This document shows, piece by piece, positions 18,752 to 21,203 of a DNA stretch of 40,623 nt. The notes under the pieces were generated by a model. It had not been told where the DNA came from. It saw nothing but the letters and a program-made list of their open reading frames with translations, and did not search any database. The stretch is from Phycisphaera sp. Its GTDB lineage: Bacteria > Planctomycetota > Phycisphaerae > Phycisphaerales > SM1A02. The position numbers and the translations under genes are program-made. Every line of letters starts with the position of its first letter. The stretch's first letter is position 1. Location of the stretch: positions 1 through 40,623 of the forward strand of contig WGMP01000024.1 of assembly GCA_016124975.1 (NCBI GenBank), written 5' to 3'.

Positions 18752-18769
18752 AGGCGCGGACCCGCGCAT

Positions 18770-18850
18770 TCGCTTCCCTCCGCCGGTGCGAGCCGGATCA
18801 GGTTCAACGGGTGCTTCTCAGCGCCGTGCGAATGCGCGGCGCGCCCCGAG
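18770..18850 (-). promoter_or_regulatory. TPP riboswitch (THI element)
   Basis: The minus strand carries the THI-box core in order: TCGGGG, then CTGAGA, ACCCGTTGAACCTGATC, CCGG and GCGGAGGGAAG. These match the thiamine pyrophosphate aptamer, including the CUGAGA and GAACCUGAUC segments that contact the ligand. The variable P3 region between GGGG and CTGAGA is a GC-rich hairpin (GCCGCGCATTCGCACGGC). Binding of TPP is expected to lower thiC expression. The aptamer begins within a few nt of the predicted transcription start. Confidence 0.96.
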
Positions 18851-18859
18851 CGAGGCATC

Positions 18860-19387: not shown

Positions 19388-19393
19388 AGGATA
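19388..19393 (-). promoter_or_regulatory. Predicted -10 box, DinB-family gene
   Basis: TATCCT, 6 nt before the ATG at 19381, with CTGCAC exactly 17 bp upstream. The transcript is predicted to be leaderless. Confidence 0.55.
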
Positions 19394-20202: not shown

Positions 20203-20219
20203 GCGGGTAGGCTACCCGC
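20203..20219. promoter_or_regulatory. Palindromic bidirectional promoter, 17 bp
   Basis: The whole spacer between two divergent start codons is the perfect palindrome GCGGGTAGGCTACCCGC. On the plus strand it reads TAGGCT-N6-ATG, on the minus strand TAGCCT-N6-GTG. Each strand thus has a -10-like box 6 nt before a start codon, overlapping the other. CTGCGG lies 18 bp upstream of the minus-strand box, inside the dehydratase gene. Both mRNAs should be leaderless and the two polymerases should compete. Confidence 0.6.
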
Positions 20220-21203
20220 ATGACGCCGACGCCCGCAGCGGAAATCGCCCCGTACGCCGCGAACATCGACGCGATCCGCGCGGCAAGACGCAGGATCGAC
20301 CCGTTCATCCACCGGACGCCGCTCCTGACGAGCGCCACGCTCGACGCGATGTCGGGCCGTCGTCTCTGGTTCAAGTGCGAGCTCCTCCAGCGGACGGGGT
20401 CGTTCAAGTTCCGCGGCGCGACCAACGCAGTGCGCATGCTCGACGATGCACAGGCCGCGCGCGGCGTCGTCACCCACTCGTCGGGAAACCATGCGCAGGC
20501 GCTCGCCCTCGCCGCGAACATGCGCGGCATTCCCGCGCATGTCGTCATGCCCACGAACTCGGCCGAGATCAAGAAGGCCGCCGTGCGCGGATACGGCGGC
20601 AGAATCGTCGAGTGCGAGGCGACCCTCGAGGCGCGCGAGTCGACGGCCGCGCGCGTCCTCGCCGAGACGGGCGGAACGATGGTGCCCCCCTACAACCACC
20701 CGAATGTGATCGCGGGCCAAGGCACGATCGCGCTCGAGCTCCTCGACGAATGCCCGCAGCTCGACGCGATCGTCGTGCCGGTCGGAGGCGGCGGGCTCAT
20801 CTCGGGGATCGCCCTCGCCGCGAAGGCGCTCAAGCCGTCGATCCGCATCATCGGCGCAGAGCCAGAGCTTGCGGGCGACGCCGCCCTGTCGAAGCGCACA
20901 GGGATGATCGAGCCGCCGATGAAGCCCGTCACCATCGCAGACGGCCTCCGCACCGCGCTCGGCCCCCTCACCTTCCCGGTCGTGCGTGACCTCGTCGACG
21001 AAATCGTGCTCGTCTCCGAAGCCGACATCGCCGCGCACATGCGCCTCGTCTGGGAGCGGATGAAGCTCACCATCGAGCCGAGCGCGGCGGTCGGCGTCGC
21101 GGTCGCGTGCAGCGACTGGATGCGCAAGCAGAAGGACCGCGCCGATGTGGGCGTGGTCCTGTGCGGCGGGAATGTCGATCTCGCAAACCTTCCGTTCGCG
21201 TGA
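20220..21203 (+). CDS. Threonine/serine dehydratase (PLP-dependent)
   Basis: A 327-residue fold-type II PLP enzyme that deaminates threonine (to 2-oxobutanoate) or serine; cytoplasmic. The PLP lysine is Lys63 in TGSFKFRGA, the substrate loop is SSGNHAQ at about 87-93, and the phosphate-binding glycine loop is PVGGGGLISG near 183. There is no C-terminal ACT domain, so this is the catabolic or serine-racemase-like type rather than the isoleucine-regulated biosynthetic IlvA. It diverges from the RNase HIII-like gene over a shared 17-bp palindrome. No SD is possible in so short a spacer. Confidence 0.92.
   Translation: MTPTPAAEIAPYAANIDAIRAARRRIDPFIHRTPLLTSATLDAMSGRRLWFKCELLQRTGSFKFRGATNAVRMLDDAQAARGVVTHSSGNHAQALALAANMRGIPAHVVMPTNSAEIKKAAVRGYGGRIVECEATLEARESTAARVLAETGGTMVPPYNHPNVIAGQGTIALELLDECPQLDAIVVPVGGGGLISGIALAAKALKPSIRIIGAEPELAGDAALSKRTGMIEPPMKPVTIADGLRTALGPLTFPVVRDLVDEIVLVSEADIAAHMRLVWERMKLTIEPSAAVGVAVACSDWMRKQKDRADVGVVLCGGNVDLANLPFA

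Follow-up and report, generated by a model that had tools for sequence, protein, structure and literature searches.

The window, a 40,623-nucleotide stretch of planctomycete DNA to which all positions below refer, contains two divergently oriented genes that are separated by 17 bp. The minus-strand gene starts with GTG at 20202-20200 and the plus-strand gene with ATG at 20220, and the sequence between them, GCGGGTAGGCTACCCGC (20203-20219), fills the complete gap between the start codons, as read directly. It is a perfect palindrome of the form 8+1+8, with the arms GCGGGTAG and CTACCCGC and an unpaired central G at 20211, and with its centre base left free it occurs a single time in the 3.61-Mb genome. 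Each strand reads TAGSCT-N6-start, and the two boxes have five bases, 20209-20213, in common. An earlier note on this DNA had described the spacer in these terms, and both the sequence and its coordinates were confirmed. Each box begins with a TAG that stops translation in the frame of its own gene, so that neither gene can start further upstream. Perfect 8+1+8 palindromes were found five times in the window (two of them overlapping) and 29 times in 308 kb of the genome; the palindrome by itself is thus not beyond chance in this 70% GC DNA, but its place and its conservation are.

The minus-strand gene passed the Pfam model RNase_HII but remained below the cut-off of NCBIfam rnhC (66 bits against 161). 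The nearest PDB match of the plus-strand gene was the serine racemase 5cvc (E 2.3e-105), and its best NCBIfam models were those of BhcB and hydroxyaspartate ammonia-lyase, all listed matches being below cut-off. The names given earlier, RNase HIII-like and threonine dehydratase, therefore need slight correction. We refer to the two as the RNase H-like gene and the PLP gene. A DinB-family gene on the minus strand has a separate box of its own (Table 1). A TPP riboswitch (Rfam RF00059, 67.7 bits) was detected on the minus strand at 18758-18858, upstream of a thiC-like gene; because the longest open reading frame of this gene, starting at 18769, overlaps the riboswitch, the gene probably starts later.

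Table 1. Features of the locus and other sites with a shared-box layout. Positions are those of the window unless a genome and contig are given.
Feature	Position	Strand	Basis
RNase HII/HIII-like gene, 260 aa	19420..20202	-	Pfam PF01351, E 2.5e-13; PDB RNase HIII, E 4e-6
PLP enzyme gene, serine racemase/threonine dehydratase/hydroxyaspartate dehydratase-like, 327 aa	20220..21203	+	PF00291, E 8.8e-82
Whole intergenic spacer, perfect 8+1+8 palindrome	20203..20219	.	Read directly; once in genome
Putative -10 box TAGGCT, PLP gene	20208..20213	+	TAGGCT-N6-ATG in 15/16 genus genomes; genome-wide offset peak
Putative -10 box TAGCCT, RNase H-like gene	20209..20214	-	TAGCCT-N6-RTG in 16/16
Invariant core GTAGGCTA	20207..20214	.	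0 changes, 16-genome tree
GC beside minus start codon	20203..20204	.	Invariant 16/16, left arm only
Right arm	20215..20219	.	3-5 changes per column, like neutral sites
Putative transcription start at the A of ATG	20220	+	-10 geometry
Putative transcription start at the first G of GTG	20202	-	-10 geometry
TATCCT, separate putative leaderless -10 box of DinB-family gene (start 19381)	19388..19393	-	TANNNT-N6-ATG in 9/9
Second pair, shared box	G201:C1:80701-80723; G202:C175:12290-12312; G159:C179:1994-2016; G207:C386:1226-1248		
Shared-box layout between divergent ORFs	G201:C9:62699-62721		One partner a long ORF
Shared-box layout, window's own genome	G000:C49:4589-4611		One partner a 142-aa ORF

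Conservation of the spacer within the genus and beyond

Both genes were present throughout the genus (16 of 16 genomes); in G206 the RNase H-like gene is truncated by a contig end, and the PLP gene of G208 continues on another contig. The RNase H-like match in G208 contains an internal in-frame TGA, which is either real or an assembly error. Every one of the 16 loci held exactly one TAGGCTA/TAGCCTA, always between the two genes, and the core GTAGGCTA (20207-20214) was identical throughout, with T20208, A20209, T20213 and A20214 all invariant. The minus start lay N6 from the box in all 16 genomes and the plus ATG lay N6 from TAGGCT in 15. In the one exception, G159, the ATG at N6 was lost and TAGGCTA kept; an in-frame ATG is found 36 bases after TAGGCT, i.e. 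the plus start has shifted by 30 bases next to an intact core.

Changes were counted on a tree of the PLP gene from the 16 genomes, with a length of 3.2 substitutions per site. The core showed no change over eight consecutive columns, compared with a mean of 4.2 changes at 109 fourfold-degenerate sites, five of which were unchanged; in a separate count based on 15 genomes, 7 of 116 fourfold-degenerate sites were invariant. Assuming independent columns, the probability of eight successive unchanged columns is 2e-11. The full perfect palindrome was kept in 3 of the 16 genomes, and, taken column by column, the 16 spacers have the perfect palindrome as their consensus. In the left arm the GC and the G were conserved and the right arm was neutral, an asymmetry that a purely symmetric promoter would not predict. 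The middle GGC of the box was frozen in all 16 genomes, beyond the requirement of a plain -10 element, and this counts against a simple promoter reading. We rejected the 17-bp palindrome as a functional unit, as first proposed, because its right arm evolves neutrally, and 13 of the 16 genomes are without the perfect form; a weak excess of arm matching remains. The loss of the palindrome from close relatives that keep the gene pair had been taken in advance as evidence against a promoter. The perfect form was indeed lost in 13 of the 16 genomes with the pair, but the core was kept in all of them, so that palindrome loss proves to be a misleading guide to the loss of the promoter.

Of 201 genomes of the order, 8 gave a match to the RNase H-like gene, and all of these belong to this genus. 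Outside the genus, 68 genomes of the family had a match, and the loci of 27 were read; in 14 of these the divergent upstream neighbour of the PLP gene was a gene that we take to be thiC, and in 4 it was a DinB gene. Since the RNase H-like gene was matched in this genus only and dinB and the PLP gene are neighbours elsewhere, the RNase H-like gene looks as if it had been inserted between the two. A TAGSCTA box was present between the DinB gene and the PLP gene in 2 of the 27 outside loci (G099 and G102, from two other genera), and the only other compared member of each of these two genera was without it.

The TANNNT signal and other shared boxes

In a sample of 308 kb of the genome, including the window, a crude codon-model finder gave 190 genes and 911 candidate starts. 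TANNNT was found upstream of these starts 23 times at offset 12 and 11, 4 and 12 times at offsets 13-15, compared with 28 times over the other 29 offsets, and the rearranged motifs T...AT, AT...A and A...TA were found 5, 1 and 0 times at offset 12, with a top count at any offset of 11, at offset 30. The commonest box in the genome was TACNCT, and T was mildly frequent at -17/-18. The third box base was usually C (33 of 49); the shared box is without that base, which we counted against the promoter reading.

We also analyzed control genes, of which three, named from their sequences, are presumably ispE, pepF and moxR, while dinB was named by Pfam and found in 9 of the 16 genus loci. A TANNNT box preceded the aligned start in 14 of 14 cases for ispE, 13 of 14 for pepF, 13 of 13 for moxR and 9 of 9 for dinB, in total 49 of 50. 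Since T-12, A-11 and T-7 of the controls are fixed by the search rule, it is the presence of the box alone that counts as evidence; five rearranged motifs under the same rule gave 14, 1, 6, 7 and 12 of 50 at the control loci, one of them reaching 12 of 13 at moxR because the moxR boxes are mostly TACCAT, which matches both motifs. All 9 dinB boxes and 12 of the 14 at ispE had the N6 spacing, compared with 2 of 13 each at pepF and moxR, where it was mostly N7-N9, and the three middle positions underwent 7 (ispE), 9 (pepF), 6 (moxR) and 7 (dinB) changes on the tree. As for a conserved -35 element, an alignment of 49 promoter-like sequences had no position from -52 to -13 above 0.2 bits; at the shared locus, where only the side upstream of the plus box could be aligned, the RNase H-like gene varies there at its third codon positions, as judged by eye. 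TANNNT-N6-start is thus the mark of putative leaderless promoters in this genome. The window has TANNNT about 12 bases before the start on both strands, and in the genus it is found on the left in 16 and on the right in 15 of 16 genomes.

By pattern counts in the 16 genomes, the strict layout CAYN5TANNNTAN5RTG was not over-represented, with 22 sites compared with 24 for the reversed control pattern. Fifteen of the 22 are this locus, 6 others lie between divergent ORFs of at least 142 aa, and altogether 21 are situated between divergent genes, the last site, in G201, having short ORFs only. A second orthologous divergent pair, which from its sequence we take to be a glycosyltransferase-like gene facing an aminotransferase-like gene, has the same 17-bp shared layout, with TACSATA, in four genomes. 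Its first, glycosyltransferase-like gene was found in 5 of the 16 genomes, and in the fifth, G204, a TACAGTA box lies at N6 on the glycosyltransferase-like side and the aminotransferase-like start is further away. The glycosyltransferase-like match of G159 has an internal in-frame TGA, real or due to an assembly error. The middles of the second pair's boxes are CCA and CGA, and a general rule by which double use freezes the middle of a box was accordingly not supported. At the two further sites listed in Table 1, the partner in G201 is presumably glutathione-peroxidase-like and that in the window's own genome GlmL/MutL-like.

A relaxed scan for the layout in the 308-kb sample gave one match and none that passed the coding filter (cut-off 8; the RNase H-like side of this locus scores 6.5), which shows only that the layout is rare. 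Among 25 divergent pairs in the sample, five had boxes on both sides, with spacers of 38-107 bp and none overlapping; the pair described here is not among the 25 because the crude gene finder missed the RNase H-like gene. One divergent pair with a 38-bp spacer (G000:C6:25343-25382) has two separate, close putative leaderless boxes, TACCCT and TATCCT.

A predicted shared promoter and its alternatives

These data suggest that the spacer acts as a promoter in both directions and consists of little more than a single -10 element used by both genes, from which two leaderless mRNAs would be transcribed; we assign this reading a probability of roughly 0.87. That one sequence might serve as the -10 box in both directions had been proposed from the window alone, and the proposal has gained support from the core in 16 of 16 genomes, the distances to the two starts in 16 and 15 of 16, and the genome-wide signal. 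RNA polymerase, probably with the main sigma factor, would melt TAGGCT for the PLP gene or TAGCCT for the RNase H-like gene, and because the -11A of each box is base-paired with the -7T of its counterpart, the same bases would be opened in either orientation; reciprocal -7T/-11A pairs, a feature of bidirectional promoters, are present at 20209 and 20213. Judging from this geometry, initiation would occur at 20220 (ATG) or 20202 (GTG), 18 bp apart, and both mRNAs would be leaderless and translated from their 5′ ends. The spacer would probably accommodate one polymerase at a time, with competition that is likely to be weak at basal activity.

The GC-rich arms would derive from the C-rich, mostly C-ending six bases before the start in both promoters. 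The six bases before the start were 55% C, with C at -1 in 19 of 23 sequences, and since such a stretch is typical of the genome, two back-to-back promoters tend towards mirrored GC-rich arms; random pairs of those 23 sequences agreed at 2.2 of 5 positions, and 3.6% of the pairs were identical over all five. In addition, position -18 of each promoter coincides with the base at which the start codon of the opposite gene begins. The minus promoter has T there in 15 of 16 genomes. The plus promoter has T in the 7 genomes whose minus gene starts with ATG and C in the remaining 9, which, like the lost ATG of G159, counts against the promoter reading.

The symmetry of the spacer would also fit an operator at which a dimeric regulator represses or activates both genes, as the earlier note had suggested. 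The consensus of the 16 spacers points in this direction, as do the perfect palindromes of G201 and G203, which arose via paired changes, the matching of the arms at 54 of 80 positions compared with 50.2 in shuffles (P about 0.02, ignoring relatedness), and the middle box bases, which are more frozen than in the control boxes. These hints are weak, however, and we consider an operator unlikely, since the neutral right arm means that the two half-sites are not both conserved, 13 of the 16 spacers are imperfect, three or more perfect palindromes appear in 16% of shuffles, GTAGSCTAC occurs 3 times in the genome compared with 41 times for its reversed control, and the four nearest genes contained no regulator family in the Pfam scan. 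A residual symmetric constraint may act on the spacer, and the frozen GGC and the conservation of the left arm could be due to a regulator or to the two directions being tuned jointly. The same left-arm conservation (GC..G, the discriminator on the RNase H-like side), which the right arm does not share, would be expected if only one promoter direction were real, most likely that of the RNase H-like gene, the mirrored box being a by-product of the near-symmetry of -10 elements; the shift of the G159 plus start by 30 bases despite an intact core agrees with this. We nevertheless regard a single direction as quite improbable, because the plus ATG is found at exactly N6 in 15 of 16 genomes despite the fast-changing spacer, and because A20214, which belongs to the minus box only, and T20208, which belongs to the plus box only, are both invariant. 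As for a palindrome that arose by chance and has no function, such palindromes are common in 70% GC DNA, but a core that is unchanged in 16 of 16 genomes over 3.2 substitutions per site makes this hardly credible.

The overlap of the boxes had further been interpreted as an expression switch, in which mutually exclusive loading of polymerase makes the two genes reciprocal. With five box bases in common, simultaneous open complexes are not expected, and this part of the claim stands, but the importance of exclusive loading found no support. In PMC12825309, competition is reported upon substantial activation of one direction, which can repress the other, and five of five E. coli bidirectional promoters were without competition at the basal level, where transcription was too low for it; a reciprocal switch is therefore not the default expectation. 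Moreover, neither an activator site nor a reciprocal function was found at the locus, and there is little likelihood that the spacer works as such a switch.

Relation to known promoters

Bacterial bidirectional promoters reportedly arise from the symmetry of the -10 element, as Warman et al. are said to have described in 2021. The divergent starts of such promoters lie 7-25 bp apart. According to PMC10268837, the spacing is most often 18 bp, -7T and -11A are reciprocal, and T is often found at -18. The promoter predicted here resembles those in PMC10268837 and PMC12825309 in its overlapping opposite-strand -10 elements, its reciprocal -7T/-11A pairs, its divergent genes and its predicted start spacing of 18 bp. 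It would differ from them in that both mRNAs are predicted to be leaderless and the promoter makes up the entire intergenic region, that any -35 element would lie inside the opposite gene, with none seen to be conserved on the readable side, and that the first base of one gene's start codon is also -18 of the other promoter. On the evidence of sequence and conservation, we thus predict a bidirectional promoter that differs from the known ones. The experimental work that we found on bidirectional promoters concerns E. coli and Salmonella, and no doubly leaderless bacterial bidirectional promoter was present among the matches listed, which consisted of titles and abstract openings and covered few subscription papers.

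Leaderless TANNNT promoters are reported for Actinobacteria and Deinococcus-Thermus in PMC3160421 and PMC12340547, and the present promoters are similar to these in having TANNNT about 12 bases before the start, a high GC content and no evident -35 element. They differ in their host, which belongs to the Planctomycetota, and in the fusion of two promoters on one box; the main texts of the two papers contain no word beginning with planctomycet, bidirectional or divergent. For planctomycetes, the PMC5397173 survey covers one species, for which it infers initiation of the leaderless and/or S1 type.

We put forward tentatively, and regard as doubtful, the possibility that minimal promoters of this kind recur in small numbers in the genus. 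In these, a single -10 element used in both directions would take up all 17 bp between the genes, neither message would have a leader, and the start codons would double as the opposite -18 contacts, the box between the RNase H-like and PLP genes having been frozen base for base through joint tuning to a fixed output ratio. If the shared promoter is confirmed, it would be near the smallest possible two-way regulatory region, with 17 bp serving two genes and the start codons lying inside the promoter. The pattern of conservation would be evidence that selection has held a bidirectional promoter for both directions over a genus. In addition, it points to a strong leaderless-promoter signature in a planctomycete genus, which would aid start-codon calls there.
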